DNA of 46,431 nt from a virus, in IMG/VR virus record IMGVR_UViG_3300021085_000058, positions 1 through 46,431 of that record; one strand, written 5' to 3'. The notes below the pieces were generated by a model that worked only from the letters and a program-made list of their open reading frames with translations, was not told the DNA's origin and made no database searches. The first letter of the stretch is position 1. Every line of letters begins with the position of its first letter. This document shows, in pieces, positions 3,364 through 21,877 of the stretch. A program made the position numbers and the translations under genes.

Positions 3364-3393
3364 GTTTTGAAAATTATATTATTGAGTACTCTT

Positions 3394-3449: not shown

Positions 3450-3456
3450 ATAAATA
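3450..3456 (-). promoter_or_regulatory. Second TATTTAT element upstream of gp18 (distal)
   Basis: Reads CTCTATTTATAT, 86 nt before the gp18 ATG. With the proximal copy this makes gp18 the only gene here with two elements in its leader. Confidence 0.4.
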
Positions 3457-3475: not shown

Positions 3476-3739
3476 CTAATCTTGAGGTATGAATACTTTT
3501 CTATCGAGATCAAGAGCTCCTTGTCCGTACTTTTCAGTCAATTCTTTACCTATACGTTCTTGAGCTTCTAATGTCTCTTTATTAAAAGAACTTGCACGCT
3601 CTTTTCTATCTTTAATAGATAGCTCTAAAAGACCGATATCGGCTAATTCATTTCTTAAAGCTGTCTTTCTATTTTGTAAAACTAATAGATTATTTACTTC
3701 TTCTTCCTGTAAATTGATCTCTTTTTTTTCTTTTGACAT
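3476..3739 (-). CDS. Small charged helical protein, unknown function
   Basis: This 87-aa protein is rich in Lys, Glu and Leu and is predicted by eye to be mostly helical or coiled coil (LQEEEVNNLLVLQNRKTAL, then ERIGKELTEKYGQ). The C-terminal motif YGQGALDLDRKVFIP looks like a small family found in marine myoviruses, but I cannot name a function. Its ATG directly abuts the TAA of the glycosyltransferase-like gene upstream, so it is probably translationally coupled to the enzyme island. It has no cysteines and no leader-core layout that would suggest a RiPP precursor. Confidence 0.7.
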   Translation of the reverse strand: MSKEKKEINLQEEEVNNLLVLQNRKTALRNELADIGLLELSIKDRKERASSFNKETLEAQERIGKELTEKYGQGALDLDRKVFIPQD

Positions 3740-4585
3740 TTATATTGGGTTTTCTTTTGTTATTAATTTTTTAATTATAGTATTACTAAATACTGGGTAT
3801 TTTTTATATCCGTGAAAATGAGTAAACTTTAACGTATTTAAATGTTTATATAAACCAGATGTGTAACTTACATTAACTAACTTATCTTTAACGTACACAA
3901 AGTTCTGATCTTTAAATGTAAAGGGATTTGCATCGTATATAAACTCATAATCTATATCATAGTCTTCTACAGCTCTCATAAATAAAAACTGTTCTATAAA
4001 AGAAGCATACTTATGTTCTTTACTTTCATTAGGTTTTAATTCTTCTATATTATTAAGTATGTCTTTAAATATGTCAGAAACTAATGAAGGATTATTTACA
4101 ATAAAAACTCCAAAGTTAGGAACTAATCTCCAGTCCCAATCTTTACGGTCGTAGTATTTATAAAATTCTTCTTTGTAAGAATTAAGATAATTTTGGTTTA
4201 AGTATTCTATCTCATTTATATCAGTGAATACTTTTAAATTTACTTCTGGGTATCCGAAGGCAATTGGTTCGTTAGAAGTATGAGTTATATTAGTAAAGAC
4301 ATCAAAGTCTAAATGTACATAAGGTTCTTTTCTTTGTATCATAGCATATATTTTAGGTATGCTAAAAATACTACCTTTAAATGATTCTAATTCTGGCAGT
4401 ACAATAACTTTATTAAAACCAATACCAAACCTTTCAAAGTCTTTTCGGCCTTCTTCGTCCGTATATAATATAGTATTATGAAATTTACCTGCAGTTTGAG
4501 TACTAATCTTAGCATAATGCCAAAAAAACGTACTTTCTAACTCTTTATACGACGATAATCTTTTCCACGTAAATATTGCGTCCAT
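3740..4585 (-). CDS. Putative GT-A type glycosyltransferase
   Basis: This 281-aa protein has features of a metal-dependent sugar transferase. It begins with a short strand (IFTWKRLSS), continues with a sugar-nucleotide fold-like region (NTILYTDEEG, KVIVLPELESF), and has a DxD motif in PYVHLDFDVFTN (residues 93-95). The layout resembles the 285-aa protein at 17374-18231 (each has an EP-F/Y-V strand just before DxD, and a Trp-rich first third), so the two probably belong to one family at opposite ends of the island. Its ATG overlaps the stop of the upstream radical SAM gene by one base (TAATG). Donor and acceptor sugars are unknown. Confidence 0.6.
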   Translation of the reverse strand: MDAIFTWKRLSSYKELESTFFWHYAKISTQTAGKFHNTILYTDEEGRKDFERFGIGFNKVIVLPELESFKGSIFSIPKIYAMIQRKEPYVHLDFDVFTNITHTSNEPIAFGYPEVNLKVFTDINEIEYLNQNYLNSYKEEFYKYYDRKDWDWRLVPNFGVFIVNNPSLVSDIFKDILNNIEELKPNESKEHKYASFIEQFLFMRAVEDYDIDYEFIYDANPFTFKDQNFVYVKDKLVNVSYTSGLYKHLNTLKFTHFHGYKKYPVFSNTIIKKLITKENPI

Positions 4586-5781
4586 TAGATTAATTTATAC
4601 TTAAACAATTTAACCTCTTCAGGAAATAAATCTACAAAAGATTGATTTCTTGATATATCTAAATTATTATTTACCGTTAAAAACTTCTGCCACTGTACTG
4701 GGTCAGCTTCTTTAAAATTTATATGACCTATTATATCTTCCCATTCTTCTCTAATTTCAGGGTACCTTACAGGTGTAGCTCTAATTTTTTCTATGATAGC
4801 TGGTTTTAAACTCTCCCTTATATTAGTAGCATTATAGTAATGAGGGGCATATACACCGTTTCTATATATTCTTATATTTCTATCTTTGCACCATTCAGCT
4901 ACTGCGCCATAATTAAGTACGTTTAGTATCTGATATGTAAAGCATAAGTCATAATGTATATTATGAAATTCTTTTGTATTTTCCAACCAAGTCTCCATAA
5001 TATTTTCAGTTTCATTCCACTTAGCTGGGTATCTTATATATTCAAAATATTTATGTGTACCGTCTATACTAAAAGATATATCTGCTTGTTTAAAATGTTT
5101 AAGTATGTCAACATATTCAGATTTAAAAATAGTTCCGTTAGTATTAAAATGTATGTATTGATTTTTAGCATAACCTTGTTCAACACTATACCTTAGGGCA
5201 TCCCATTGCTTTTTCATCATTAGCGGCTCTCCGCCATACATGTCTAAGTGCCTTACATACTTCATATTAGAATGCAATTGTTCCCATATTAAACTATCAT
5301 CTGTAAAGGCATTATTGTAGGTCTTAGCAATTTGATTTATCTGTTCTTTAGACCATTGTTCATCTGGTCCTAGTGTTAGGTTGTGTTCTTTTTTCCAATT
5401 CATAGATGCACCTAGAGAACACATTCTACAAGCTAAATTACAAATATTACCTAAATTTAACTCTAATGAAAAAGGAGTATTATGTATAACCTGATCACTT
5501 ATAGTTTTTTGATTATCTCTTACTCGCTTGCTTGCTCTTCCTAAAGCCTCTTCTTGCCAACAAGTTTCGCAAGCAGGATGTTTAATATTATTTTTAAAAG
5601 CATTTCTTATTTCATCTAATGTAGGTGAAGAGAAAGCTTCTTCAAAAGTATGAGTTTTAACGTTCATATCTTCTCCTTTGCGGTCTTTATACTTTACTCC
5701 TCTTGTTAAACAACAGGGAGAGTATGTACCATCAGTATGAATCCTTAACCCAGCATCAATATTTGTACACTTTAAACTCAT
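4585..5781 (-). CDS. Radical SAM enzyme with Cys-rich N-terminal twitch-like domain (A)
   Basis: This 398-aa protein carries the radical SAM signature CNLACRMC (Cys 114, 118, 121), which binds the [4Fe-4S] cluster that cleaves S-adenosylmethionine, and a GGEP motif (183-186) that contacts SAM. Ahead of the barrel is a cysteine set, C5, C23-C24, C71 and C74 (SPCC ... CETCW), suited to a second Fe-S cluster. That arrangement matches proteins called twitch domain-containing radical SAM. A short tail (LDISRNQSFVDLFPEE) is shared with copy C. It overlaps the upstream gene by four bases (ATGA), within a chain of six such genes. The substrate is unknown; protein or sugar modification are both possible. 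Confidence 0.88.
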   Translation of the reverse strand: MSLKCTNIDAGLRIHTDGTYSPCCLTRGVKYKDRKGEDMNVKTHTFEEAFSSPTLDEIRNAFKNNIKHPACETCWQEEALGRASKRVRDNQKTISDQVIHNTPFSLELNLGNICNLACRMCSLGASMNWKKEHNLTLGPDEQWSKEQINQIAKTYNNAFTDDSLIWEQLHSNMKYVRHLDMYGGEPLMMKKQWDALRYSVEQGYAKNQYIHFNTNGTIFKSEYVDILKHFKQADISFSIDGTHKYFEYIRYPAKWNETENIMETWLENTKEFHNIHYDLCFTYQILNVLNYGAVAEWCKDRNIRIYRNGVYAPHYYNATNIRESLKPAIIEKIRATPVRYPEIREEWEDIIGHINFKEADPVQWQKFLTVNNNLDISRNQSFVDLFPEEVKLFKYKLI

Positions 5782-6806
5782 ATTATAGTAAGGTTATGTC
5801 TAATGTTAGTAACTTGAGGTAGTGTTCTATATACCTTCATTAATTCTGGAAATTGAGAATGATTAGGATTCCCTACATCTACTGAATTAAATTTTTCATC
5901 TGACCAATGTCCCCAGTTAACAACTCTATTATAAAATACACTCCACTCTTTATTTTTACCTCCAAATATTTTACCGGCTAATTCATAAAAGTCTTTCATT
6001 TCAGTAAAATTATCATTCTGAACTACGAAAGATAGAGTAACGTTTTTTAGTGTGGGTATGTTAGATATATACTCCAAGTTACTCATTAGTGTATCCCATT
6101 TGCCTCCTAGTCTAGTTTTATTTTCATAAGTATCTTTACAAGCTGCATCTACAGATATCTCACAACTCTTAACAAATCTATGTACATTTTGCATTCTAGT
6201 CCAATTAGATTCATTCCATAGTGTAGCATTGGTATGTAAATGGATTGATTGTAACTTAGGGTACTTAGTAGGATCAAATCTCATCATCCATTTTCTAAAA
6301 GTTCTAGAGAAAAATGCATCTCCAGATCCTGTACATTCTATATGTGTTAGTTCTTCCCCTACTTGGTCTTCTATATTCTGTATTAACTCTTCTGTTCTTT
6401 CTCTCTGTTTGCCTTCGTAATTTATAAAAGTTAATCTACAAGAAGGACATTTTAAATTACAGCTCTGGTCAAAATTATATTTAAGTTGATGAGGATACTG
6501 GTTTTCAAATTCGTCTTTTCTTTCTATATATTCTGATTTAGGTATAAAACCAGTTGTTTTACCTTCTTTTAATCCTGTTAGTTTAGGACATCTAGATTCT
6601 ATGCAGTACTTATATGAACCATCAAGCATACTATCTCTAATAGCTTGAGCTTTTTCTGATTTAAAGTTTTCTAATATGTTATTAGGATTTCCTAGATCTT
6701 CGGGTAACCAGTTTGGGCAACACATAAACATTTTATGGTCAAATATTTCTGCAAACTCAAATGGTTGAGTACAGACCCAATCTTTCTTATCTAAGACTTT
6801 TGTCAT
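5778..6806 (-). CDS. Radical SAM enzyme, divergent short member (B)
   Basis: At 342 aa this is the shortest of the six radical SAM proteins. The cluster motif is CNLKCPSC (Cys 116, 120, 123). The N-terminal cysteines C12, C29-C30, C68 and C73 follow the same pattern as in the neighbours. The usual GGEP is replaced by TGSGDAF at about 159-165, so the SAM-methionine contact is made differently or the active site is specialised. It also lacks much of the C-terminal region seen in the others. It overlaps both neighbours by four bases (ATGA). Its substrate may differ from that of the others. Confidence 0.85.
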   Translation of the reverse strand: MTKVLDKKDWVCTQPFEFAEIFDHKMFMCCPNWLPEDLGNPNNILENFKSEKAQAIRDSMLDGSYKYCIESRCPKLTGLKEGKTTGFIPKSEYIERKDEFENQYPHQLKYNFDQSCNLKCPSCRLTFINYEGKQRERTEELIQNIEDQVGEELTHIECTGSGDAFFSRTFRKWMMRFDPTKYPKLQSIHLHTNATLWNESNWTRMQNVHRFVKSCEISVDAACKDTYENKTRLGGKWDTLMSNLEYISNIPTLKNVTLSFVVQNDNFTEMKDFYELAGKIFGGKNKEWSVFYNRVVNWGHWSDEKFNSVDVGNPNHSQFPELMKVYRTLPQVTNIRHNLTII

Positions 6807-8179
6807 ATTAAAGGTCTAGTATTTACTTTTGCTTTAGGCTCTTCTTTTTTACCTTTAGGTAATTTTTTCCAATCTATACCTGCTGTCTCTAATCTATGTC
6901 TTATTTCTTTAAACCATTGTTCATATTGAGGATTAACTTCTAAGAATGACTGTTTTCTACTTATATCTAAATAAACAGTATTAGCAAGTAAACTCTGTTC
7001 TTCTGCATGTTGATCTCCACTAAACGGTTCATTAACAAAACTCTTCCAGCTTTCCAAGCCGTATTCTACTACTACTCTATATTTAGAAGGGACTCTATTA
7101 TCTCTATAGTCTATAAGTTTATCTATCAACTGGTCTTTTAGGTACTGAGGTAATAATCTAATATCGTAAAACTTAGGGGTAGTTAAAAGATTATTAACAT
7201 TAATTTTATCTACATCTATATTTAATTCTGCCGCTACATCAATTAATTCATCTATAAAGAACATATTTAATAGACTAACGGTAGGAGAAAAATAAATTTG
7301 TATGCCTGTTCCTTGACATTTTTTAATATTCTGGTAAACGTTATTCCATTTAGTTCCGTCTCTAATTACTTCTGCTAAAGTTCCTACAGCATCTAAAGAA
7401 GCAAATAATTGTATATTACCTTTAGGATCATCTAAAAACTTTTGCCACATACCGAATAGATCCCATTTTTTAAACTTAAGATGACTAAAATTAGTATTAT
7501 ATCTTAACCTAACATCAGTTCTACCTGCTGCTATAAGTTTTTCTAGAATCATATAATGTTCCTCCATTACTAAAGGTTCGCCTCCTGCAAAGTATATCTC
7601 TTCTACATCATTAATAAACTTATCAACTAATTCAAAAGTATTTTCTTTACCGTTAGAATTAAATTCTAGTACTCCTTTTGTATCTGAAGCCGTATTATCA
7701 CCGTGTAGCTCTACTGCCTCTTTATGCCATTTACTACTTGAATAAACTCCACACATTCTACACTTAAAGTTACAAATATTAGACCATCTAAAGTCCCAAT
7801 ATCTTAATTTAAATTCTTTTGCTTCTCCAGTCTCCTCATCAGTCATATCTAATACCTCTGTAATACGATTTTTAAAATAATCGTTATGAGTAAACCTAGG
7901 GCTATTAAGTCCATTGTCTTCGATTAGAAAACATCTTTGACAAAGACTAGGTCTTTTACCATGTATCATTTTTTTTCTGATGTCTTTCATGGTATCTCCA
8001 TTCCATATCTCTTCTAGAGTGTCATCTTTTGTATTCCCTATATTATCTCCATAAGGAGCCATACAACAAGGGTATATATCACCGTTTGGCTGTACATTTA
8101 AGTGTACCCAGGGTAAGATACAGAAGGTTTCTGTGCTTTTCAGCTTATCGTGTTTAGGAAATTTAAATTTTGTGCTCAT
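6803..8179 (-). CDS. Radical SAM enzyme with Cys-rich N-terminal twitch-like domain (C)
   Basis: This 458-aa enzyme has the clearest form of the family layout. It has FCILPWVHLNVQPNGDIYPCC (C20, C38-C39), CQRC (C80, C83), CNFKCRMC (C136, C140, C143) and AGGEPL (199-202). The barrel is followed by a region with LDISRKQSFLEVNP, shared with copy A, and a Lys/Pro-rich tail of about 25 residues. The CxxPW and NG...PCC phrases are typical of SPASM/twitch-type auxiliary cluster domains, here at the N-terminus instead of the usual C-terminus. It overlaps copy D by 17 bases. The function is inferred only as radical chemistry on an unknown, possibly macromolecular, substrate. Confidence 0.9.
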   Translation of the reverse strand: MSTKFKFPKHDKLKSTETFCILPWVHLNVQPNGDIYPCCMAPYGDNIGNTKDDTLEEIWNGDTMKDIRKKMIHGKRPSLCQRCFLIEDNGLNSPRFTHNDYFKNRITEVLDMTDEETGEAKEFKLRYWDFRWSNICNFKCRMCGVYSSSKWHKEAVELHGDNTASDTKGVLEFNSNGKENTFELVDKFINDVEEIYFAGGEPLVMEEHYMILEKLIAAGRTDVRLRYNTNFSHLKFKKWDLFGMWQKFLDDPKGNIQLFASLDAVGTLAEVIRDGTKWNNVYQNIKKCQGTGIQIYFSPTVSLLNMFFIDELIDVAAELNIDVDKINVNNLLTTPKFYDIRLLPQYLKDQLIDKLIDYRDNRVPSKYRVVVEYGLESWKSFVNEPFSGDQHAEEQSLLANTVYLDISRKQSFLEVNPQYEQWFKEIRHRLETAGIDWKKLPKGKKEEPKAKVNTRPLI

Positions 8180-9437
8180 TTGCTATTATATTGTATAACT
8201 CAGGAAATGTATCTTTTACTTTTTCTCTTCTTACTCTATCTACTGCAGCTGTTGTGTTTAAAAATTCTGCTCCTCTATTATTACATTCAGAATTATAAAA
8301 GTTAGATTTTAATCTATTAAAGAATGTAACTGGGATTTTACCTTCTATGCTATCTAACTTTTCTTGTCTTATTTTTTTAGGTAGAATATTTACATTTTGG
8401 TACTCTGGGGCAAATAAATAATTATCATTCATAAAGAGAGGTTCTTTTCCTGTAATACTCATTAAACCTTCTTTGATTAAAAATTGAGATAACTCTTCTA
8501 TATAAAGAAAATTAAATACACTTATTGTTTGAGTAACAGAATAATGGAAATCTGGGTATTCATTTACATATCTCTTTAAATTTTTAATAGTTAAGTCCCA
8601 ATTACTTAAACTTCTTATATATGTGTTACGTTTATCATAATCATCTATACTAATAGACATAGATACGCGGTTAAAATGTTTTAGTTTACTTAAAAACTTC
8701 TCTGCTACTTTATCAAAATTATAATTTGCGTTAGTAATATAGGAGATATGAATATTTTTAGAAACTCCTTTATCGATTAACAATTGTAAGAAGTGGCTAT
8801 GTTTATCTACTAAAAAAGGTTCGCCTCCACTTATTTGTACTGTATGTAAATTATCAGTATACTTAAATAAACTTTCGTAAAACTCTTCTTTCTCTACCCA
8901 GTCATATGAACTATCAGTACCTGATGTAATCTCATCATAATTACTAGGAAGATTTATTTCATTCTTTAGTTTATTATAATCGTTTATCCAAGAAGTAGAA
9001 GATTCAGCATTACAGCCTCTACATTTTAAGTTACAGTAATTACCTAATCTTAATTCAAGGTTACCTATATTAGTTTTAATTCCTCCTTCATCGTCTGTAA
9101 TTTCAGTAAGGTAGTCTAAAGATAATTTCTTTTCTCTTTGCCTTTTTGAATTACCTCCTGCTTGTTCAAGATTATAACAAGTCATACAGGCTGCAGGTAC
9201 ATCACCAGCTAACATCTCTTTACGGATCTGTCTGTACGAATCACTATTCATTACAGCATCTATACCGTCTCTATCTATGTTTAAGACAGAAGATGTATAT
9301 TTTCCATTTACTTTATTTTTAGCGAAAGCAATGTCACTAGACCAGTCTACTTCACAACAGGGGGATGCATGACCATGAGGGTGTACGCTTAGGTGTTCCC
9401 ACGGTAACGAACATATAAATTTTTCTTTACTCTTCAT
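8163..9437 (-). CDS. Radical SAM enzyme with Cys-rich N-terminal twitch-like domain (D)
   Basis: This 424-aa protein starts MKSKEKFICSLPW, with C9, C27-C28 (ASPCC), C84 and C87 (CMTC) as the likely auxiliary cluster ligands. The radical SAM motif is CNLKCRGC (C135, C139, C142) and the SAM-binding motif is SGGEPF (204-207). The C-terminus (DRVRREKVKDTFPELYNII) is a diverged version of the tail found in copies A and C. It overlaps the gene for copy E by 11 bases. The start is supported because the next in-frame residues already form the conserved C-x-PW phrase. Confidence 0.9.
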   Translation of the reverse strand: MKSKEKFICSLPWEHLSVHPHGHASPCCEVDWSSDIAFAKNKVNGKYTSSVLNIDRDGIDAVMNSDSYRQIRKEMLAGDVPAACMTCYNLEQAGGNSKRQREKKLSLDYLTEITDDEGGIKTNIGNLELRLGNYCNLKCRGCNAESSTSWINDYNKLKNEINLPSNYDEITSGTDSSYDWVEKEEFYESLFKYTDNLHTVQISGGEPFLVDKHSHFLQLLIDKGVSKNIHISYITNANYNFDKVAEKFLSKLKHFNRVSMSISIDDYDKRNTYIRSLSNWDLTIKNLKRYVNEYPDFHYSVTQTISVFNFLYIEELSQFLIKEGLMSITGKEPLFMNDNYLFAPEYQNVNILPKKIRQEKLDSIEGKIPVTFFNRLKSNFYNSECNNRGAEFLNTTAAVDRVRREKVKDTFPELYNIIANEHKI

Positions 9438-10776
9438 TCTTTAGCTCTTGGTACCAATCATTAAACTCTTGAGGCATATATTCTTCTACTGGCTTGTTTC
9501 TTCTTACTGCGTATTGATCTACAAAATTAATTAGGTCATTACGTTTTTTAGAATAAGCATCTACATCTTCCATAGAACTATCTACCCTTCTTAAATAAAT
9601 AAGCAATCTTTTTAATTGGTTCCTTTCTAGGTCATTAATCCAGTCATATTCTTCTTTCATGACTTTCTCAATCCTATTAGCTAAATCTTCTTTTATTGTT
9701 TGAGGTAACATAGTAACACTCTGGAATGATGGAAATCTTAGTATATTAACTGACATAAAAAATGCATGTTTATCATTTACTTCTTTTTTCCACTCAACAA
9801 TTTGCTTTACAAATTTATCAACAGTCCATATACCTAATAAAGAAATTGTCATCATAACGTACATTCCATTTATATGAGGAGATGCTACTGCTTTCTTAAC
9901 ATTTTTTTCCCATATATCCCAATCAAATCCATCTCTAACAAATTCTTGATTCTTGTACATACATTCTGCTGAAGTGTATATGTCTAATTTCTCAAACTTC
10001 TTTCCTGCTTCAACTAACCTATCTAATCTAGAATCTTCCATTATTAGATTACTGTTAACTGCTAAAGCGAACTTCTCATTATCACTCATATCAATAAGTT
10101 TCCAAAATGATGGACTACGAGAAGGTTCTCCACCCGATACTCTTAACTCAGTAATACCGTCTTTTATTTCAGGAAACCAATCAAAAAATCGTTTCACATA
10201 AATGTTACCTTCATTCTTATTACCAAATGGCATTGCAATAGAACCATCTTGTCGATACGTTTTGCCACCGTCAGTAACCATATTCTTATATTCTCCGTTC
10301 TTAACAATATCTTTAGACCATGTAGAACTAAATTCTGAGTTACAATAAGAGCAGGCTAAGTTACATAAGTTATCAAAACATATTTCTACAGTCTTAGGAT
10401 TAACATTTTTATCCCAAGGAATATCTTTTAATGCTTTTATTTCTTCTTCAGTATATCTTGCAGTTTGATATATTCTATCACTGTTAATAGTTTCATCTTG
10501 AGCAGCATCTTCTACTTTCCAACAATAACCACATTCAGCAGGTCTTTCACCTTCTAACATTTTCTTACGCTGTTCTTTTTTAAATTGAGTATTATGTAAA
10601 GCTGAAGCACTTTTCTCTAACTCTTTCTTAGGTACTGGGTGAGCTAATGGGTGGTGACAGGATGCAGTTCTACCATTGCCAAGCCAAATGGATACATTGT
10701 ACCACTTAGCAGCACAAAACGATTTTGGAGCTATGTCCTTAATTAACTCTTTAGTTCTTTCGTAACTTGTATTCAT
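9427..10776 (-). CDS. Radical SAM enzyme, CHH subtype (E)
   Basis: This 449-aa protein has CNLACSYC (C138, C142, C145) and SGGEPS (215-218). The N-terminal domain differs from copies A-D: the Cys pair is replaced by ASCHHP (C40, then two His), with C21 in FCAAKW and CGYC at 82-85. The phrase LHNTQFKKEQRKKMLEGERP is shared closely with copy F, so E and F form a separate subfamily. A His in place of a Cys may alter ligation or redox behaviour of the auxiliary cluster. It overlaps the small beta-rich gene upstream by four bases. Confidence 0.88.
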   Translation of the reverse strand: MNTSYERTKELIKDIAPKSFCAAKWYNVSIWLGNGRTASCHHPLAHPVPKKELEKSASALHNTQFKKEQRKKMLEGERPAECGYCWKVEDAAQDETINSDRIYQTARYTEEEIKALKDIPWDKNVNPKTVEICFDNLCNLACSYCNSEFSSTWSKDIVKNGEYKNMVTDGGKTYRQDGSIAMPFGNKNEGNIYVKRFFDWFPEIKDGITELRVSGGEPSRSPSFWKLIDMSDNEKFALAVNSNLIMEDSRLDRLVEAGKKFEKLDIYTSAECMYKNQEFVRDGFDWDIWEKNVKKAVASPHINGMYVMMTISLLGIWTVDKFVKQIVEWKKEVNDKHAFFMSVNILRFPSFQSVTMLPQTIKEDLANRIEKVMKEEYDWINDLERNQLKRLLIYLRRVDSSMEDVDAYSKKRNDLINFVDQYAVRRNKPVEEYMPQEFNDWYQELKNEE

Positions 10777-11360
10777 GCCATCTCATATAAAAAGTTGCAG
10801 TTACCTGTCTTATCTACTGATTTAGCATGTATAATTTCTTGCCAATCGTGATGACATATAACTCCATCTCTAGTTGTTATTTTAAACTCGTAAAACTTAA
10901 TATCTGTTTCATCAGATTGGTCTTGTACTGTATGTTTATCTGTGCCGATAAATACTATTGGATCATTAACTACTGCTAGCGGTCTTAAAACTAAACTATA
11001 TTCAAAGGTTTTTACACCATTTCTAGATATAACTAACTTATCGTTAGGAAAGTGTTCAAAAGTAAAACTTTCTTTAGTGTTAGGTTCTATAAATTGATCT
11101 GTACCGTGCCAATCATCTTTATCATCATGTCCTACACCTATAAATATTCTCTTTTCAAAGATTGATAAACCAGTGTACTTAGGAACTATACAAAATATAT
11201 CTTTTTGTTTATCCATATTAATACCGGTATATTCAAATGTAACATCTACCTTCCAGTAGGTGTCTCCTTGTAATTTATCTACAGCTGAGTCATCTAGGAA
11301 TGCTGGGCAGATACTATTAGGCCACAAAGCCCAAGGATGTCTACGGCTTATATTTATCAT
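10773..11360 (-). CDS. Beta-rich protein, possibly ConA/LamG-like, between two radical SAM genes
   Basis: This 195-aa protein has no recognisable catalytic motif. Alternating strands such as YWKVDVTFEYTGI, RIFIGVGHDD and DPIVFIGTDK, and a final phrase ICHHDWQEIIHAKS, suggest a beta-sandwich, possibly a concanavalin/LamG-like glycan-binding domain like those embedded in the two GT7 proteins of this island. It overlaps the radical SAM F gene by 20 bases and E by four, so it is made together with the two CHH-type enzymes. It could present a substrate, bind a glycan, or itself be modified; the sequence does not decide. The fold assignment is tentative. Confidence 0.65.
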   Translation of the reverse strand: MINISRRHPWALWPNSICPAFLDDSAVDKLQGDTYWKVDVTFEYTGINMDKQKDIFCIVPKYTGLSIFEKRIFIGVGHDDKDDWHGTDQFIEPNTKESFTFEHFPNDKLVISRNGVKTFEYSLVLRPLAVVNDPIVFIGTDKHTVQDQSDETDIKFYEFKITTRDGVICHHDWQEIIHAKSVDKTGNCNFLYEMA

Positions 11361-12720
11361 AAAATTCTTTTAACTCAGGAAACACTTTATAAAAGTCTGT
11401 TCCTTTTCTTTTATCATTCTCTTTTATAAAAATACCAAAATCTTTTCTATACTTTTCTGTATCAAAAGAATCTTCTCCTATGGCATAATCATATACTCTT
11501 TTAATTTTTTGGATTTCTACATCTGTAAATCCATATGTTTTAGAAGTCATTTTATTAGAACCGTAATGCAATGCTTTTTTAGCTGCTTCTAGTATTAACT
11601 CTTTATGTTGCGGTTCAAGTATCTTAACAGATAAATGCATAGGCCACCTAATATAAGCAGTATCTAATTGTACAGCTGTCATCCAGTACCTCTCACCGTT
11701 ATTATGTTTCTCTTTCATCTCTAATACCTTATCTATTAACTCACCATAAGTGAATACTGATAAAGCATTAAATGCTGCCATAATATTAACAGTTACTTTA
11801 GGAAGTCTAGTACATATCTCATCTACATTTTCCCAAAACTTATCATACTTTAATCCCCATCTAGTATACTCAGCTTGCTTTCCTATTGCTTCTACAGAAG
11901 TAAAGATAATTAACTCTCTAATTTTATTATTATTAACTAGATCTTCTGCCATAGTTAACATTTTCTGTATAAGTTTATCCGGTACTGCTAAATTAGTATT
12001 AATAGCTAGTGATAAGTTAGGATTTTGTTCCCAATTTTCCTGTATATACTCTAATACTTTAAATGTATCAGGAGATAATAAAGGTTCTCCCCCTGTAATC
12101 CTAAACGTGTGTAAGTCTGGATATAAGTCAGGCCACCATTCCCAAAATGCATCTATGTATGGATTAGGTTGAGATTTTAAAATTGGCATTTCATCTCTTT
12201 CTTTTAATAATTTTATACTATTAAATTTAGTAGATGTTTTATATTCACCATGCTTTTCTATTTCCTCTACCCATTTAGAAGAATATTGAGGTCCACAATA
12301 AGCACATTTTAAATTACAGGTATTAGAAAAAGATACTTCTACGTATCTTGGATTATAATTTTCTCTCCAATCAGAAGCTTTTATCTTTTCCATTTGATCT
12401 AATGACCATGGTTCAGCTGATTTAAAAGTTCTATCAGAAAATGAATCTGAGTTATCTTCTATATTCCAACAGTAATTACATTCTGCTGGTCTTTTACCTT
12501 CCAGCATTTCTTTTCTCTTAAGCTTTTTATACCTTGTATTATGTAGAGCTGATGGATTACGTTTTAACTCTGCTAACGGTATTTTATGTTGTACCGGGTG
12601 GTGGCAGGAATGAGTTAATCCTACTCCAAGGTGCATAGTTACTTGAGTCCACTTAGCCAAGCAGAATCCACAGCCTTTTTTATTGAGCTGGTCTCTTACA
12701 TTTGAGTATGATGTGTTCAT
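11341..12720 (-). CDS. Radical SAM enzyme, CHH subtype (F)
   Basis: This 459-aa protein is the closest relative of copy E. It has MNTSY at the start, C17, C20 (FCLAKW), SCHHP (C39), CNYC (81-84), the radical SAM motif CNLKCAYC (C135, C139, C142) and TGGEPL (209-214). E and F share the stretch with LHNT, RK.MLEG.RPAEC.YCW and ED. The C-terminus (FYKVFPELKEFYDKY) keeps the FPE element present in several island members. It overlaps the GT7-like gene upstream by four bases, which ties radical chemistry and glycosyl transfer into one translational unit. Confidence 0.9.
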   Translation of the reverse strand: MNTSYSNVRDQLNKKGCGFCLAKWTQVTMHLGVGLTHSCHHPVQHKIPLAELKRNPSALHNTRYKKLKRKEMLEGKRPAECNYCWNIEDNSDSFSDRTFKSAEPWSLDQMEKIKASDWRENYNPRYVEVSFSNTCNLKCAYCGPQYSSKWVEEIEKHGEYKTSTKFNSIKLLKERDEMPILKSQPNPYIDAFWEWWPDLYPDLHTFRITGGEPLLSPDTFKVLEYIQENWEQNPNLSLAINTNLAVPDKLIQKMLTMAEDLVNNNKIRELIIFTSVEAIGKQAEYTRWGLKYDKFWENVDEICTRLPKVTVNIMAAFNALSVFTYGELIDKVLEMKEKHNNGERYWMTAVQLDTAYIRWPMHLSVKILEPQHKELILEAAKKALHYGSNKMTSKTYGFTDVEIQKIKRVYDYAIGEDSFDTEKYRKDFGIFIKENDKRKGTDFYKVFPELKEFYDKYKP

Positions 12721-14129
12721 AATTTAATATTGATCATCTTAGCCCATGGAGTTAGAATCTCTTCTCCTACAAGCTCGTATTTAAGGGTAGATATACCGTC
12801 TTTTTTGTAGTCAATTTTACCTTGTTGCATTTGAAGTACGTATCTCTCTTCATTTTTTGCAGTAGTGTCTCCTTTAACAAATATTCCTCCTATTATACCT
12901 TCATCTTTATGAGGTAAACATCTCATCTTTCCGTCTTCTCTAAAAGGCAATATGGAGTTAGGTACTACTATATCTTCTGTTTTTATAGTTATATCTTTAC
13001 TTTCATACGAGTTAAGATCCGTTACATCTAAGTCGTAAATTAATCCGTCGGTAGGTTCAGTTTTATGTAAGTTTTCGACTTCTGTTGGAGTTAAATCTCT
13101 ATCCCATATCTTAACTGCTGCAATATCTCCTTTAAAATATTTAACTGGGCTATCAGCTTTTTCAGAAGGTGTAGTTCCTAAGTATATTTTATCTACGTTA
13201 TACTTTTTAAGTCTACCTTCATACTTGAACGGTGATGGGCTACCAAAACCTGCTAATGAATCAACTTCAGTTCCATTTAAGTAAAAATGTGATAGTTTAT
13301 TATAATCGTCAAATACTACAGTTACCCAACTCCATTGATTATCATATCTTTTTAACCACATATAGTTATGCTGGTTAAATGTATTCCAGAAAGTACAAGA
13401 TAGTGCTCTAGAATTATTAAATGATATACCGTAATCATAACCAGGTATTCTAAAAATAGGATATTCTACATATCGTCTACTTTTACTACCTATTAGAAAG
13501 ATAGGATTTTTTTCAGGCATTTGAAATGCTCTTGTTAATACGGAAACTGTATGAGACTTTCTATTAAAGTTTTTAAATTCTTCTGGTACAGGTATTTCTA
13601 CTGATGAAGAGTTACCGTTAAATCTTATGTATTCCTTTTCTTTAAATTTAACATCTAAATAACTATCATCTGTTAAACCTTCTTTATGACATCTCCAAAA
13701 TAAATCATCATCTTCCATTCCCCAATCCCAATAATCATTCGAATATCCATTAGTCTTCTCTAATTGCTCTTTAGAAAATAGAACTGCTCCTCCAAAATAT
13801 TCATGGTATTTAAGTTTCCAGTCCATCTGTTCGATCTTAGTAGCGATATGCCTTGGAGCGTCTTTTGGAAAAGAGTAATCTGCTCCACCGTCTTCTAAAG
13901 GTATCATATCTATATCATGCCATACAATATAATCACACCCTTCTTCCAACGCATGTTTTGCAGCAATATTCTTAGTAGCTCCTCTATTAAAGAGTTTATC
14001 ATCAACTTGATGACAGAAATACATCTGGAAATCAATATTTCTATCTTTAAGGTATTTACCTACTTTAGGTATAAATTCGTTGAGATGTAATTCTCTATCT
14101 CTGTATGGTACACAAACTCCTAGTTTCAA
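12717..14129 (-). CDS. GT7 galactosyltransferase-like enzyme with an inserted LamG-like domain (1)
   Basis: This 470-aa protein has the motifs of the beta-1,4-galactosyltransferase family (GT7): VPYRDR (7-12), FNRG (47-50), HDIDM (71-75, metal-binding DxD), EYFGG (110-114) and YWDWGMEDDDL (133-143, catalytic acid region). Residues ~160-375 look like a LamG/concanavalin sandwich, starting YIRFNGNSSSVEIP and ending with AAVKIWDRDLTPTEVENLH. GT7 sequence then resumes: FREDGKMRCLPH, then KKDGISTLKYELV and MINIKL, matching the end of animal beta4GalT (H as metal ligand, DGLNSL.Y, ITVDI). The lectin-like domain is therefore inserted in the catalytic domain. A TATTTAT element lies 34 nt upstream of the ATG. 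UDP-sugar donor and acceptor are unknown. Confidence 0.85.
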   Translation of the reverse strand: MKLGVCVPYRDRELHLNEFIPKVGKYLKDRNIDFQMYFCHQVDDKLFNRGATKNIAAKHALEEGCDYIVWHDIDMIPLEDGGADYSFPKDAPRHIATKIEQMDWKLKYHEYFGGAVLFSKEQLEKTNGYSNDYWDWGMEDDDLFWRCHKEGLTDDSYLDVKFKEKEYIRFNGNSSSVEIPVPEEFKNFNRKSHTVSVLTRAFQMPEKNPIFLIGSKSRRYVEYPIFRIPGYDYGISFNNSRALSCTFWNTFNQHNYMWLKRYDNQWSWVTVVFDDYNKLSHFYLNGTEVDSLAGFGSPSPFKYEGRLKKYNVDKIYLGTTPSEKADSPVKYFKGDIAAVKIWDRDLTPTEVENLHKTEPTDGLIYDLDVTDLNSYESKDITIKTEDIVVPNSILPFREDGKMRCLPHKDEGIIGGIFVKGDTTAKNEERYVLQMQQGKIDYKKDGISTLKYELVGEEILTPWAKMINIKL

Positions 14130-14136
14130 AACTTTC

Positions 14137-15567
14137 TTATTTAGTTGTTAACGCTGCTTTTATATAAATAACATTATCTTTAGTATTAGAATCAATTACT
14201 TGATAATATAATGTGTTAAGTCCTTCATTCTTAGAATCAAATCCGCCGTTATAAAATTGCTTAAAAAATTCTACTTGATTAACTCTGCTCTGCCATGATT
14301 TCCAATACCCGTCTACATAGCCATTTTCTTCATGTTTAACTGCTTTAAATATACCATCTTTTCTATAAGGAATTGGTACTTTTTTAGAGGTACTAAAATC
14401 TGTTTCTTTATGGTATGTATTAAAGCAACTGGCATGATTATCATTTCCTGATAGGTCTAATAATTCTCTGTCTCTCGCAAACTTACCATCATAGTAAACT
14501 ATAGGTTTAGTTTCTATAGTACTAAATAGACTACGAGTAATATTAGCGCCTAATCTTTCTATTTCATTTTGACTCAATATCTCTCCGTATACTGCAAAAT
14601 GAGATAATGTACCGTTTAGGTAATTGCGTTTTTCTACTTCTTCTCTATTAGGATCTCCTACTCCTAAATAATAGTATTTTTCTTTTCCTATATTCATCAT
14701 CTTGTCGTAAGATAATGAACCTATCTGTTTTCCATTTATCCAAAGACTTACGTTTTTTGGATCTTTTCTATTCGCAATAGTAATAGTAATATTATACGTA
14801 CCATCAGGATAATGAGGTGAAGATAAATTCATAGAACTTAAATCTTTCTTCCAAAATTGAAAAGCAAAGTTTCTAAATGAATTATATGTTAAGGTAGTAT
14901 CAAAGCCAGGAATAGAAAATAAACAATATTCATCTGTAATAGCTTTTTCATGATTAGACATTTCATCTACTGATATAGTAGTATTAATAGTAAAGTCTCT
15001 AACTGAGTTAAATATATTAGGGCACATTACGAAACCGTCCTTACCGTTTAACTTTAATCCTGTGCTAAATCTTTCTTTTTGTTCTACTTCTTTATAGTCT
15101 ACTACCACATTATTTGAAGTACATCTTAACATTAGATTATCATCTTCAAATCCCCAACCCCAAAATTCATTAGAGTATCCGTTAATAGATTGGAATACAG
15201 ATGCTGGAAATAACGTAACACCGCCAAAATATTCATCAAATAAAGTTCTGTCGAAACCTTCTGGTGTGATAATATCTCCTATTAGGTGAGTAGGTCTGTC
15301 GGTATAAGAATAATCTGCTTTAATCGGTAGTAAATCTACATCATGGAATACAACATAGTCACACCCTTCTTTTACAGCAGAGTTAAAACCTATATTGAGT
15401 AACTTACCTCTATTGAAATCGTTATCATCAGATTGTTCTACTACAATAATAGTATGATCTATTGTACTTAGGTACTCAGACATATGTGATACAAAAGACT
15501 TTAACTGTTCTTCTCTATCTCTATAAGGTACAACAACTCCTAATTTATGCTTTATCTTTTTTTCCAT
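14137..15567 (-). CDS. GT7 galactosyltransferase-like enzyme with an inserted LamG-like domain (2)
   Basis: This 476-aa paralogue of the neighbouring gene is even closer to classic beta4GalT motifs: VPYRDRE (13-19), FNRGKLLNIGF (51-61), HDVDLLP (75-81), YFGGVTLF (113-120) and NGYSNEFWGWGFEDDNL (129-145). A beta-sandwich (about residues 165-340, with LSHFAVYGEILSQNEIERLG near its end) interrupts the enzyme. A GT7-like end follows: YRKDGIFKAVKH, then GLNTLYYQVI and VIYIKAAL. It overlaps the 83-aa gene upstream by 23 bases and ends seven bases before its paralogue. The pair may act in sequence on one glycan, or the inserted lectin-like domains may select different acceptors. Confidence 0.87.
   Translation of the reverse strand: MEKKIKHKLGVVVPYRDREEQLKSFVSHMSEYLSTIDHTIIVVEQSDDNDFNRGKLLNIGFNSAVKEGCDYVVFHDVDLLPIKADYSYTDRPTHLIGDIITPEGFDRTLFDEYFGGVTLFPASVFQSINGYSNEFWGWGFEDDNLMLRCTSNNVVVDYKEVEQKERFSTGLKLNGKDGFVMCPNIFNSVRDFTINTTISVDEMSNHEKAITDEYCLFSIPGFDTTLTYNSFRNFAFQFWKKDLSSMNLSSPHYPDGTYNITITIANRKDPKNVSLWINGKQIGSLSYDKMMNIGKEKYYYLGVGDPNREEVEKRNYLNGTLSHFAVYGEILSQNEIERLGANITRSLFSTIETKPIVYYDGKFARDRELLDLSGNDNHASCFNTYHKETDFSTSKKVPIPYRKDGIFKAVKHEENGYVDGYWKSWQSRVNQVEFFKQFYNGGFDSKNEGLNTLYYQVIDSNTKDNVIYIKAALTTK
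14164..14170 (-). promoter_or_regulatory. Possible internal TATTTAT element in the enzyme island
   Basis: Reads TGTTATTTATAT inside the last codons of the upstream GT7-like gene, 34 nt before the ATG at 14129. It could give the radical SAM half of the island its own transcript. As it is coding sequence in AT-rich DNA, chance is possible. Confidence 0.3.
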
Positions 15568-15796
15568 CTATAACTTCTACTTCTTCTTTAACTTCTACTG
15601 GTGGTACTGTTCTATGCCATTCTGCTAGGTAGAATTGAAGTCTGTCTCCCCATTCTTCTTTATCAACCTCTTCGAACCATAGAGCAAGAGCATCCAGTGA
15701 ATTAGCAATCTTCTCTAAAGCCTTTAGCTTTCTTTCTTCGATGATTTGCTGTTCAAAAGTAGGTTTTCCAAAACTTGCTGTTTTCTTCTGACTCAT
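15545..15796 (-). CDS. Small helical protein in the enzyme island, unknown
   Basis: This 83-aa protein is mainly charged helix (FEQQIIEERKLKALEKIAN, then LDALALWFEEVDKEEWGDRL) with a Lys/Glu-rich end. It has no cysteine and no known motif that I recognise. It overlaps the glycosyltransferase upstream by four bases and the GT7-like gene downstream by 23 bases. An adaptor or scaffold role for neighbouring enzymes is a guess based only on position and composition. Confidence 0.65.
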   Translation of the reverse strand: MSQKKTASFGKPTFEQQIIEERKLKALEKIANSLDALALWFEEVDKEEWGDRLQFYLAEWHRTVPPVEVKEEVEVIDGKKDKA

Positions 15797-16632
15797 ATTG
15801 AAACTATTTTATTTTTTATTAACGACCATTTCGTATAGTCATTATATCTAATATAAGAAAAATCTTTCAACTTTTCAACTTTATATGTAGTATTATTTAG
15901 ATCTATTTTCCATCCGGAATTTACTATAGCATCATACATAATTTGATATTCTTCTGAATAAGAGTAATCTTTTTTAACATCTGCTACTCTTTTTATTCTT
16001 TCCATACAGGTATCATCCCATTTAAAATGATGTACTTGTGTAAATACCTCTCTTATAGGATACCTTTTGGGATGTTCTCTACCCCAACTATTAGTACCGT
16101 CTTGAAAATCAGCATAATGTTGACCAGGAGTAACCCATTGATGTCCTTTCATTAAAGTTACTTTATTAGGGCAAGCACCAGACATTGGATATCTAAAGAA
16201 ACCAGCGTAAGGAAAAGCTTCGTGAATATTAGTGTCTCTCGTCACTTTTGGGAATGTACCATTAGTACCTATTCTATCTAAGAACCCTCCTGTGACAAAG
16301 TCATACCCATATCTCTCACACTCTATAACGATATCCTGTACATGCCTTGGATAGACCTGTAGTTCATCATCATCTGATACTATCCACCAATCGTTTGGTT
16401 TAGTTTCTTTAATTGCGTTATATATCTCAGTAACTCTTTCCCAATTATATTTAGGTTCAGTATAAACCATATAAGGTTCAATACCCAAAGCTCTTACTTC
16501 GTCTACTATACCGTCATCCTCTGATTGTCGGTACACTGCAACGTATACATTATCTACCATATCTTCATAATGCTTCAGCATATGAGGTAATATATGTGTA
16601 TTTTCTCCGACAACTGTAACTAAATTAAGCAC
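15793..16632 (-). CDS. GT2-like glycosyltransferase
   Basis: This 279-aa protein begins MLNLVTVVGENTHILPHMLKHY, like enzymes that open with a nucleotide-sugar-binding strand and an N-ILP-ML motif. It has the acidic metal-binding motif WWIVSDDDELQVYP (SDDDE at 86-90), as in GT2/GT-A enzymes of the type that answer a question of sugar transfer at a polymer end. The later part contains HHFKWDDTCMERIKR, a frequent C-terminal feature of this group (HHF/YKW). It overlaps the methyltransferase upstream by eight bases. The substrate is not predictable from sequence. Confidence 0.75.
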   Translation of the reverse strand: MLNLVTVVGENTHILPHMLKHYEDMVDNVYVAVYRQSEDDGIVDEVRALGIEPYMVYTEPKYNWERVTEIYNAIKETKPNDWWIVSDDDELQVYPRHVQDIVIECERYGYDFVTGGFLDRIGTNGTFPKVTRDTNIHEAFPYAGFFRYPMSGACPNKVTLMKGHQWVTPGQHYADFQDGTNSWGREHPKRYPIREVFTQVHHFKWDDTCMERIKRVADVKKDYSYSEEYQIMYDAIVNSGWKIDLNNTTYKVEKLKDFSYIRYNDYTKWSLIKNKIVSI

Positions 16633-17377
16633 GTTTTATAATTGTTAGTCCTGTAGAGGATGGTTTCTTTGGATATGCACCTTCATTAAAAAAATCAAAT
16701 CTTTGCCATTCTGATCCTATTTCATTAATAAACTTAGCAGGTCCATTTGCAAATTCATCATGATGGTTTTGATCAGTAATATCTTTTGTGACTATGTAAT
16801 TCTCAGCGTATCTAATGTCTGTATCGTGAATAGATATCATACCGTATTCAGATAATAGAGAACTGTATAGTTCAAAGTCCTGTTTTACATCTTCATAAGA
16901 ATGCCCAGCATCAATATGTAGATAATCTATTTTAATATCTTCTTTGACAAAAAAGTCATAAAATGCTTTTTCTGTAGTTTCATTAATTATTCTAGGAGAG
17001 AATATTTTTCTAAAGAATGAACCTTCTGGTAGCCAGTCTACATTACCTCCTACTTTATTAGCAGCATCTACTATAAAGGTAGTACCTATATCACCCCAAT
17101 TATAATCTCTATCTCCTTCAAATATCTCAGTATCATATAAATCTACTCTAGCCTGAGTCATAATACGAGGTATAAATCCTCCTCCGGATCCTAAACAAAC
17201 ACATACTTTAGCTCTCATATACTGAATCATAGAGTATATTAATAGACCATCACCTAGATGAAAATCTGTAGCACCGTGAGTCCATCTATACTCTACAGGT
17301 TTAAGATTAATCTTATCGTCCTCTAAAATTTGATTATTAGTTATGAAACTCTGTATGTATTTCTTATCTATTATCAT
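16625..17377 (-). CDS. Class I SAM-dependent methyltransferase
   Basis: This 250-aa protein has a Rossmann-type SAM-binding glycine motif, VCLGSGGGFIP (60-70), and the phrase IDYLHIDAGHSYEDVKQDF (150-168), typical of the Methyltransf_24 / cephalosporin hydroxylase-like group. In that group, similar enzymes often methylate sugars in glycan clusters. ISIHD at 181-185 supplies the last conserved strand. It sits between two glycosyltransferase-like genes with overlaps of eight and four bases, which supports a glycan or glycoprotein as the target. A role in modifying phage DNA is less likely given the context. Confidence 0.8.
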   Translation of the reverse strand: MIIDKKYIQSFITNNQILEDDKINLKPVEYRWTHGATDFHLGDGLLIYSMIQYMRAKVCVCLGSGGGFIPRIMTQARVDLYDTEIFEGDRDYNWGDIGTTFIVDAANKVGGNVDWLPEGSFFRKIFSPRIINETTEKAFYDFFVKEDIKIDYLHIDAGHSYEDVKQDFELYSSLLSEYGMISIHDTDIRYAENYIVTKDITDQNHHDEFANGPAKFINEIGSEWQRFDFFNEGAYPKKPSSTGLTIIKRA

Positions 17378-18231
17378 TTATTTGTTATATGATCTAAGTT
17401 TAACTCTGGTAAGTTAATTGCATTTATTAGTAAATCACATTCTCCTTTATAACCTAATTGAGTTTTATCACTAATAACATATTTCTTTCCTGGTCCATAA
17501 TGTTTAAAGTAAAGCTCTGATTCTGGAAATGGCCATATGCCTTTATCATGATCTTCTCCCCAATCCCATTTATTGCAGTCCCAGTATGTTGCTATGAGAC
17601 TTTTATAGTTTCCGAATTCTGGATGATTATCTAATATCCATCTAAGTAGTAATTGTTCTGCAAATATTAAGTATTGAGAATTTGGAACATTCATAGCAGA
17701 AAACTCTTTCATCATTTCTAAACTCCAACGGCCGTAAAATTCAGATAAATCAGTTCTAGGGAAATATAAAAAAGATACGTTTAATGAATCTTGTTGCCAT
17801 CTCAGCCTATTGGATAATTGCTTTACATATTGATCTATGTTTCCTGGGTAGTATCCTTTACCTGTCTCTAGATTTGCTACAAGTATATCGTCTTTTAGAT
17901 ATTCGTCCATGTTCTTGAACACCAGACTATCATTATCCATAATAACAAAAGGTTCTTTTTGCTCAAATACAGTTTTAACTTTATTACAAGCCCAGAAGAT
18001 ATCTCTTTTAATTTTATATGTATGTTCGTATTTAACTATCTCATCCCATAGATGGATAGCATTTGCCAAGGTGAGTGTTTCTTTTGTTAAGTCATCACAG
18101 TAGAGTACCGTATGATGATGCGGATGATTACGTTTCCATAACGTAACGGATGCTAGTAAAAGTAATATATTAAATTTACCGTAAAAACCTTTGTCGTTAT
18201 GGATATTTTCTAATACCCAAATTATTCTCAT
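17374..18231 (-). CDS. Putative GT-A type glycosyltransferase
   Basis: This 285-aa protein is the first gene of the enzyme island in transcription order. It has a DxD motif in EPFVIMDNDSLVFKN (DND at 99-101), preceded by YCDDLTKETL and a segment with DIFWACNKVK. The layout parallels that of the 281-aa protein at the other end of the island (3740-4585). The C-terminal HYGPGKKYV resembles the HGP-type motif in small sugar transferases. It overlaps the methyltransferase by four bases and lies 21 bases after the stop of the small fibre-associated gene upstream, so it may be read from the fibre transcript. Confidence 0.65.
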   Translation of the reverse strand: MRIIWVLENIHNDKGFYGKFNILLLLASVTLWKRNHPHHHTVLYCDDLTKETLTLANAIHLWDEIVKYEHTYKIKRDIFWACNKVKTVFEQKEPFVIMDNDSLVFKNMDEYLKDDILVANLETGKGYYPGNIDQYVKQLSNRLRWQQDSLNVSFLYFPRTDLSEFYGRWSLEMMKEFSAMNVPNSQYLIFAEQLLLRWILDNHPEFGNYKSLIATYWDCNKWDWGEDHDKGIWPFPESELYFKHYGPGKKYVISDKTQLGYKGECDLLINAINLPELNLDHITNK

Positions 18232-18252: not shown

Positions 18253-18732
18253 TTAAGCGTGTGCGTTAACAAAATACGCGTAAATGTTTTGGTAACTAGT
18301 AAATGTACTAGCTGTTAATGTTATAGTTCCTGATGTAGTTGGCTCGTCATAATTAACTAATAATGTTCCACCTCCATTAGCTGCAGAATAAAATCCTTCT
18401 AAGTAGTTAGGGTAGGTAGATGTAGCAGTAATTGTAACAGAAGATATTGAGTTAAAGTTTACGTTAGATAAATTAAAACTTGTAGTACTTGTTGGAGTAG
18501 AGTATCCACCTGTTACTGCAATATTTCCAGATGCTCCAGAACAATGTACAGTTCCGTATAGGAAGTTATTACCTCTTAATTCTGAAGCTTGATGAGGTGC
18601 TGCATCAGCAGGCTCTAGATTATCCATTACTTGATTCAAACTTATATTAGAGTCTGATGAATATGAATTGTGCCAAGCATCAAAAGTTGACCATGCTACT
18701 GATGATCCTGCTCCGTATGAATATACTGCCAT
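18253..18732 (-). CDS. Ser/Thr-rich protein, probably virion/fibre associated
   Basis: This 159-aa protein has no cysteine pattern or catalytic motif. It is rich in Ser, Thr, Gly and Asn and has a strand-turn character (SSVTITATSTYPN, GTITLTASTFTSY), which suits a small beta-structured virion or fibre-tip protein. An N-terminal part with NISLNQVMDN resembles entry segments of short phage tail proteins. It lies between the 184-aa gene (gap five bases) and the first glycosyltransferase. Function is inferred only from composition and position. Confidence 0.7.
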   Translation of the reverse strand: MAVYSYGAGSSVAWSTFDAWHNSYSSDSNISLNQVMDNLEPADAAPHQASELRGNNFLYGTVHCSGASGNIAVTGGYSTPTSTTSFNLSNVNFNSISSVTITATSTYPNYLEGFYSAANGGGTLLVNYDEPTTSGTITLTASTFTSYQNIYAYFVNAHA

Positions 18733-21839: not shown

Positions 21840-21870
21840 TTTGTTAAGTTTTTAAGTTTTTGCGTTTATT

Positions 21871-21877
21871 ATAAATA
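21871..21877 (-). promoter_or_regulatory. Putative late promoter element TATTTAT (S74 fibre unit)
   Basis: Reads ACATATTTATAA, 31 nt before the ATG of the 843-aa fibre gene. No further clear element precedes the enzyme island until 14164, so it may drive that island too. Confidence 0.5.

Follow-up and report, generated by a model that had tools for sequence, protein, structure and literature searches.

A fixed-core island of glycosyltransferase-like and radical SAM genes between the tail fibre and tail sheath of a phage, a candidate pathway for decorating host-binding proteins

We analysed an island of enzyme genes on the minus strand (positions 3740-18231) of a 46,431-nt stretch of DNA from a large marine phage, IMG/VR virus record IMGVR_UViG_3300021085_000058, hereafter called the window. 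The island lies inside the tail-gene operon and holds 14 genes, coding for six radical S-adenosylmethionine (SAM) proteins (rS1 to rS6), five glycosyltransferase (GT)-like proteins (GT2, GT7a, GT7b, GTd1 and GTd2), one methyltransferase (MT), and the proteins BP195 and sm (Table 1). The original prediction, made from the sequence by itself, had placed the block at the same coordinates and counted thirteen genes, although its own list sums to 14. Our principal conclusion, to which we give an even chance of being correct, is that the island specifies a late pathway that would decorate host-binding parts, either the fibre or the small neighbouring protein u159, with an unusual glycan, and would be cotranscribed with the fibre.

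Protein families were assigned with Pfam and NCBIfam profiles, PHROG, PDB searches and AlphaFold2 (AF2) models compared by Foldseek. By Pfam and PHROG matches, the island is flanked on one side by sm87, the sheath and the tube and on the other by u159, u184 and a fibre with a peptidase S74 domain (S74 fibre). Its genes overlap by 1-23 nt at 12 of the 13 junctions, the sole gap being the 7 nt between GT7b and GT7a, which confirms the predicted layout of overlapping genes between fibres and sheath. Gene order was counted among the 80 best of 201 viral GT7a relatives. The order MT-GT2-sm-GT7b-GT7a-rS6 recurs in IMG/VR relatives: GT7b stands directly upstream of GT7a in 77 of 78 loci (open reading frames of ≤150 amino acids being skipped), rS6 is the next gene downstream of GT7a in 73 of 79, and 57 of the 58 loci with enough flanking sequence carry MT, GT2 and GT7b together. 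After this core, BP195 was found in 34 of 74 loci and rS5 in 43 of 74. The core sits behind S74 fibre-u184-u159 in the full-length marine islands examined and was found in scores of uncultured phages. Comparison of the window with two relatives (L090 and L018) gave ratios of nonsynonymous to synonymous substitution (dN/dS) of 0.07-0.25 for island genes and 0.12 for the sheath; the values are rough given a dS of 0.6-1.6, and indicate purifying selection on every gene tested. These ratios, together with a gene order kept in many contigs, argue that the island is not a chance assemblage.

The 3' half of the island is variable. It reads rS4-rS3-rS2-rS1-GTd1 in the window, and elsewhere holds Q387 genes, amidinotransferase-like and SGNH genes, NAD epimerase, DegT aminotransferase, UDP-sugar dehydrogenase, NTP transferase, a B12-type radical SAM gene and a RuBisCO homologue; the sugar genes in the variable half of relatives are UDP-glucose/GDP-mannose dehydrogenase, NTP_transferase, NAD epimerase and DegT aminotransferase. 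In a relative whose sheath is 97% identical (L013), the identity is 71% for rS4, 78% for rS3 and 49% for GTd1, and there is no close rS1, pointing to fast exchange of the 3' half. The notion that the genes form one set therefore holds for the core, which travels together, and fails for rS4, rS3, rS2, rS1 and GTd1, which are replaced at about 97% sheath identity. Among the 343 viral contigs compared as sheath relatives, the sm87-sheath pair is kept and the genes preceding it differ. Where the neighbourhood of the sheath at first seemed free of radical SAM genes, an rS6-rS5 pair lies further upstream, and N_Twi_rSAM genes (see below) were present in 10 of 10 contigs tested from the sheath set and in all four from the radical SAM set.

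Several other observations concern the contents of this slot. In L087 (6671-7789), a homologue of the RuBisCO large chain (Pfam E 5e-35; best PDB match 4nas) lies between GT7a-rS6 and sm87-sheath, adjoining a nucleotidyltransferase and an SGNH/DUF6071 gene, and several relatives encode a B12-binding radical SAM protein of about 630 amino acids in their variable half (L083, 4933-6828). Q387 (L221, 7452-8615) and P346 (L246, 13665-14705) are abundant island families with no Pfam match and, for the members tested, no PHROG match; Q387 carries a conserved TEKTFKP motif and reaches four copies per island. The L013 sheath gene (5513-7267) and the L022 rS1 gene (1205-2401) are each split into two frames, by sequencing error or decay.

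Transcription appears to tie the island to the fibre. The late-promoter-like motif TATTTATA occurs in the window 12 times on the coding strand and once on the opposite strand. Seven of the 12 copies fall in the intergenic 3.3% of the window (P about 3e-8, under uniform placement that ignores the AT-richness of gaps, for which reason the difference between strands serves as the better control), and these precede the tube, the sheath (two copies), the S74 fibre and three further structural-region genes. Across the 80 relatives, TATTTATW was counted 174 times on the coding strand and 18 times on the opposite one, and it was found in the gap before the tube in 9 of 9 relatives, before f201 in 11 of 11, and before the sheath and the S74 fibre with equal constancy (Table 1). 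The structural part of one relative, G001, has 20 coding copies versus 2 opposite and the remainder 8 versus 9, with the motif in 19 of 31 structural gaps versus 7 of 37 elsewhere (Fisher P 5e-4). The motif is absent from most island junctions, at which neighbouring genes overlap (median gap about -4). In lineages whose upstream genes differ, and where MT or sm does follow a gap, it occurs in 18 of 21 and 9 of 13 cases, respectively, suggesting the same promoter class as for fibre, sheath and tube. We infer that TATTTATW is a late promoter of these phages and, because it precedes the fibre while most island genes overlap and lack it, that the island is part of the fibre transcription unit; late expression with virion genes, as originally proposed, is supported by this motif and gap evidence. 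One in-gene copy, 41 nt before GT7a in the window, might serve as an internal promoter. Scans for generic sigma-70 promoters and for terminators gave counts no higher than shuffled sequences, an Rfam scan gave no match, and a tRNA search found none.

GT7a and GT7b both match Glyco_transf_7N/7C (E 1e-14 to 2e-20) and Laminin_G_3, and both carry HDxD and WGWGxEDD motifs. Their first about 155 residues match animal beta-1,4-galactosyltransferases (b4GalT) in the PDB; GT7b matches b4GalT7 there with E 1e-28, and its AF2 model (predicted local distance difference test, pLDDT, 89) retrieves b4GalT7 again by Foldseek (E 3e-13). By these matches the two proteins are members of family GT7, for which transfer from UDP-galactose is a prediction only. 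The second domain of GT7b resembles, by Foldseek, a carbohydrate-binding protein of Bacteroides ovatus (4dqa, E 2e-9) and pentraxins. In both proteins the LamG-type domain comes after the WGWGxEDD segment, and the segment that follows it has invariant P, H, N and G residues over 25 homologues; by its position and conserved residues this last segment may be the remainder of the catalytic domain, with LamG inserted within it. A profile of the C-terminal segment found no b4GalT match in the PDB. GTd1 and GTd2 belong to DUF6734, a family of unknown function, and are labelled GT-like from DxD-like motifs only. The five GT-like proteins first listed thus comprise two GT7 members, a GT2-like protein just below its cut-off and two proteins named by motif, and the methyltransferase was confirmed by its match to Methyltransf_24.

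Pfam PF04055 matches all six rS proteins, rS5 under the cut-off of that family, in agreement with the six radical SAM enzymes of the original prediction. Five of them exceed the whole-protein cut-off of 170 bits of NCBIfam NF033640 (N_Twi_rSAM), whereas rS2 fails it (Table 1) and, judged by this profile, is only a related radical SAM protein and not a member. The CX3CX2C motif is intact and the N-terminal auxiliary-cluster cysteines are present in all six, with conservation over 131 homologues; a joint alignment of the six, used as a search query, showed no conserved stretch. No solved radical SAM enzyme comes close to the AF2 model of rS3. Its nearest folds, all weak, are BlsE, which acts on a nucleotide sugar, and SuiB, which acts on a peptide (E about 4e-5), with the peptide enzyme SkfB also among them, and as modelled these neighbours do not decide between a sugar and a peptide substrate. 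BP195 has no Pfam match, and its candidacy as a stand-alone LamG lectin was rejected: 0 of 7 members match LamG, and hhalign gave a probability of 0.6% against the GT7 inserts.

The N_Twi_rSAM profile search returned at least 593 viral loci, 79 of which were examined for arrays. Arrays of two to eight (mode five) are the rule in these, and a single gene is found in 48 of 78 loci from bacterial assemblies. Five multi-copy 'bacterial' loci are evidently phage contigs in bins of metagenome-assembled genomes (MAGs); these contigs (L118, L119, L125, L097 and L103), filed under Candidatus Pelagibacter, Verrucomicrobia, Betaproteobacteria, Rhodobacteraceae and Rickettsiales MAGs, carry fibre genes and the same operon and are likely mis-binned or infecting phages. 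Most viral loci examined follow a second order, namely fibre-like genes-s115-GT286-GT257-GT310-RSb1-(Q387)-RSb2-RSa1-RSa2-RSc-P346-carbamoyltransferase. GT286, GT257 and GT310 had no Pfam match, owe the label 'GT' to motifs, and showed no homology to the GTs of the window. In a quick LG+G4 tree of the radical SAM proteins, with some long branches that make the RSa placements less certain, rS6 groups with RSb1, rS5 with RSb2 and rS3 with RSa1 (supports in Table 1), and rS1 is sister to RSa2 (support 95); the second group has orthologues of rS6, rS5 and rS3 in that order, behind fibres. Since the tree joins the radical SAM proteins while the GT-like genes are not homologous, one ordered radical SAM module would thus be joined to two different GT-like modules, both behind fibre genes. 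More tentatively, and in our view somewhat against the odds, an ordered relay RSb1-RSb2-RSa may mature the tail adhesin or its glycan in late assembly, with the radical SAM proteins as the conserved engine and the GT modules swapped, making up a widespread class so far undescribed.

Judged by the sheath, the closest isolated phage is Flavobacterium phage immuto (63%). Its slot holds no island; the fibre is followed there by a few small genes, lysozyme, a homologue of sm87 and the sheath. Microcystis phage Mel-JY01 and Pelagibacter phage HTVC008M have no island beside the sheath either, and the HTVC008M sheath is 38% identical to that of the window over half the protein. Because the nearest sheath belongs to a Flavobacterium phage, a Bacteroidota host is weakly suggested. 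Among 50,697 phage records, RSb, GT310 and GT7b had no cultured relatives, and rS3 had only distant KVP40-type Vibrio phage proteins, located away from tail genes. Such distant radical SAM relatives lie near PagP, NadV and QueC in Vibrio phages K566 (L007, 11971-16373) and KVP40 (L008, 7995-10101). The relative G001 (L351, 8192-11534; L353, 8299-14653) has NeuB, cytidylyltransferase and QueC/QueE-like genes, and its carbamoyltransferase adjoins a motif-preceded fibre-like gene.

Table 1. Features of the window in and around the island, with supporting matches
Feature	Position	Strand	Evidence and remarks
Late-promoter-like motif TATTTATA (coding strand), before S74 fibre gene	21870..21877	-	likely start of the island-containing unit; motif in same gap in 22/22 relatives
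Tail fibre, C-terminal peptidase S74 (endosialidase-type chaperone)	19308..21839	-	Pfam PF13884 E 2e-13; PHROG tail fibre families
u184, small protein adjoining fibre in island-bearing relatives; candidate fibre partner	18738..19292	-	
u159, small Ser/Thr-rich (27%) putative structural protein directly upstream of enzymes; candidate substrate	18253..18732	-	
GTd2, DUF6734, GT-like by motif only	17374..18231	-	Pfam PF20508 E 1.7e-7
MT, SAM methyltransferase, core	16625..17377	-	Methyltransf_24 E 4e-9; 58/58 loci with enough flank
GT2-like glycosyltransferase, core, GTG start	15793..16632	-	Pfam PF13704 (Glyco_tranf_2_4) E 6e-6, just below cut-off; 57/58 loci
sm, small, charged, probably helical, core	15545..15796	-	49/58 loci
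GT7b, beta-1,4-galactosyltransferase-like with LamG/pentraxin-like domain (residues about 180-336), core	14137..15567	-	Pfam, PDB, AF2
GT7a, second GT7 with LamG, most conserved core GT, TTG start	12717..14129	-	PDB b4GalT1 E 2e-27; 201 viral relatives
rS6, N_Twi_rSAM, RSb1 orthologue group, core	11341..12720	-	NF033640 333 bits; 73/79 directly after GT7a; tree
BP195, unassigned fold, between RSb1 and RSb2	10773..11360	-	homologues 3' of GT7a in 34/74 loci
rS5, N_Twi_rSAM, RSb2 orthologue group	9427..10776	-	279 bits; clade of 22 rows, support 100
rS4, N_Twi_rSAM, variable half	8163..9437	-	320 bits
rS3, N_Twi_rSAM, groups with RSa1 set (support 88-90)	6803..8179	-	373 bits; AF2 pLDDT 92
rS2, divergent radical SAM, GSGD replacing the GGEP of the other five	5778..6806	-	62 bits, below cut-off
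rS1, N_Twi_rSAM, sister to RSa2 set	4585..5781	-	299 bits; tree
GTd1, DUF6734, variable half	3740..4585	-	Pfam PF20508 E 3.9e-8
sm87, small protein preceding sheath; also in island-free isolate	3476..3739	-	
Two late-promoter-like motifs before sheath gene	3449-3456 and 3393-3400	-	26/26 relatives
Tail sheath, slot boundary	1609..3363	-	Pfam PF04984 E 1e-12
TATTTATW motif, coding strand, before structural genes	1587-1594, 3393-3456, 21870-21877, 39511-39518, 44018-44025, 45945-45952		

In the pathway that we favour, the GT7b, GT7a, GT2 and DUF6734 proteins would attach sugars to the adhesin and extend them, with the LamG domains of the GT7 proteins holding the acceptor or the growing glycan. 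Next, the further N_Twi_rSAM proteins and rS6, the latter together with BP195 and rS5, would edit sugar carbons by radical chemistry, possibly by oxidation, epimerisation, dehydration or ring changes, and MT would cap the glycan by methylation; the core chain would be fixed and the 3' half would set the lineage-specific final structure. The glycan product, the adhesin target and the order of the chemistry are our inference. That a glycan is built, as first guessed, is likely because related islands hold UDP-sugar dehydrogenase, epimerase, aminotransferase and nucleotidyltransferase genes, and the modified virion part would presumably be an adhesin. Among fibre, sheath and host surface the sheath is the least likely substrate, as promoter-like sites of its own precede it and the nearest isolate has a sheath but no island. 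The D[ST][AILVMT] motif of Bacteroidota O-glycosylation has zero occurrences in u159, an uninformative count.

Several points weigh against this pathway. At the same distances, the identity of fibre, u184 and u159 is 34-57% versus 63-75% for MT, GT2 and GT7a, so that no obvious coupling of the enzymes to the fibre is seen; the neighbours of bacterial N_Twi_rSAM genes are mixed (two carbamoyltransferases, two DegT and two GDSL among 68); late expression of enzymes that modify surfaces could have other causes in lytic phages; the usual substrates of SPASM/twitch radical SAM enzymes are peptides; and the weak fold neighbours of rS3 include SuiB and SkfB beside BlsE. The last two points also favour a protein modification that involves no large glycan, in which N_Twi_rSAM proteins would crosslink or modify residues of the fibre or u159 like the maturases of ribosomally synthesised and post-translationally modified peptides, and the GTs would add single sugars. 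The Ser/Thr-richness of the adjacent u159 would suit this, though fibres generally share it. Yet no leader peptide or peptide-recognition partner was recognised, and the radical SAM genes of relatives are accompanied by sugar-nucleotide genes, not peptidases, and we regard this explanation as improbable. It is unlikely, though less so, that the same enzymes alter lipopolysaccharide or another surface glycan of the host, blocking superinfection or the re-adsorption of progeny to debris. Sugar-nucleotide enzymes do lie among the island neighbours, G001 encodes NeuB and cytidylyltransferase elsewhere in its genome, and PMC7029224 proposes this role for the glycosyltransferases of the pelagimyophage host recognition cluster. 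However, an island that shares the late fibre unit and the promoter-like motif would come late for superinfection exclusion, and none of its genes was recognised as coding for a flippase, polymerase or ligase.

Mixtures of GTs and radical SAM enzymes fit pathways of DNA hypermodification, and the island GTs, radical SAM proteins and methyltransferase, with the carbamoyltransferase of relatives, might build a genome-shielding base. Phage GTs do hypermodify DNA (Pyle et al. 2024, as cited in PMC12619734), but the island stands in the late tail region, not with replication genes, and for 7-deazaguanine DNA modification G001 has suitable QueC/QueE-like genes of its own, apart from the island, making this proposal very unlikely; a Tet_JBP search gave no match, nor did its control. 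Equally remote is the proposal that the island as a whole is loose hypervariable cargo with no joint pathway, in a slot before the sheath that tolerates insertions. The mosaic 3' half between near-identical phages and the many alternative cassettes in the slot speak for cargo, whereas the order and adjacency of the core genes, kept in 73-77 of about 79 loci, the strong purifying selection and the conservation of the RSb1-RSb2-RSa order across distant phages speak against it; for the core cargo is already largely refuted, and for the 3' half it is possible.

Marine viromes are rich in radical SAM and glycosyltransferase genes, according to PMC7150976. If the decoration of host-binding proteins is correct, there would be a concrete reason for such genes being listed as 'auxiliary metabolic genes' in virome surveys (e.g. 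PMC7150976). If the island does decorate tail adhesins, oxygen-sensitive and difficult chemistry would join host recognition in abundant aquatic phages, a question that the conserved core and the shared fibre transcription unit make directly testable in any cultured relative. We know of no radical SAM enzyme shown to act on virions and, to our knowledge, none takes part in mycobacteriophage virion glycosylation. The island resembles that system in its phage-encoded GTs, which there modify virion proteins (Freeman et al. 2023, as cited in PMC12619734), a target that for the island is predicted.

The original prediction knew of no pathway joining radical SAM enzymes and GTs in a phage, a claim to be qualified in view of the host recognition cluster of pelagimyophages, marine T4-like myophages, for which a hypervariable region by the tail fibres with several glycosyltransferases and radical SAM cassettes was reported in 2020 (PMC7029224, accessible sections). 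The island is likewise hypervariable, lies by tail fibres and combines GTs with radical SAM cassettes. It differs in that a fixed MT-GT2-GT7-GT7-rSAM core, GT7-LamG proteins and evidence for a shared promoter are, relative to those sections, reported only for the island, and in that GT8 is there given as the main family of the pelagimyophage cluster. The lineages may differ as well, the window sheath being nearest to that of a Flavobacterium phage and cultured HTVC008M having no island by its sheath. As far as the accessible literature shows, most subscription papers lying outside the search, the new elements are the core of fixed order, the GT7 proteins with LamG domains, the radical SAM module that keeps its order in both phage groups, and the late-promoter class common to island and structural genes. 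Compared with b4GalT1 and b4GalT7, the phage GT7 proteins share the N-terminal part of the catalytic domain (about 155 residues, including HDxD and WGWGxEDD), but have a LamG/pentraxin-like domain after WGWGxEDD and a C-terminal segment with no sequence match. The radical SAM proteins resemble N_Twi_rSAM NF033640 in that five of six lie over its curated cut-off and in their N-terminal twitch-type cysteines and CX3CX2C; they differ from their bacterial relatives, which are mostly single, in standing as ordered tandem arrays behind fibre genes.

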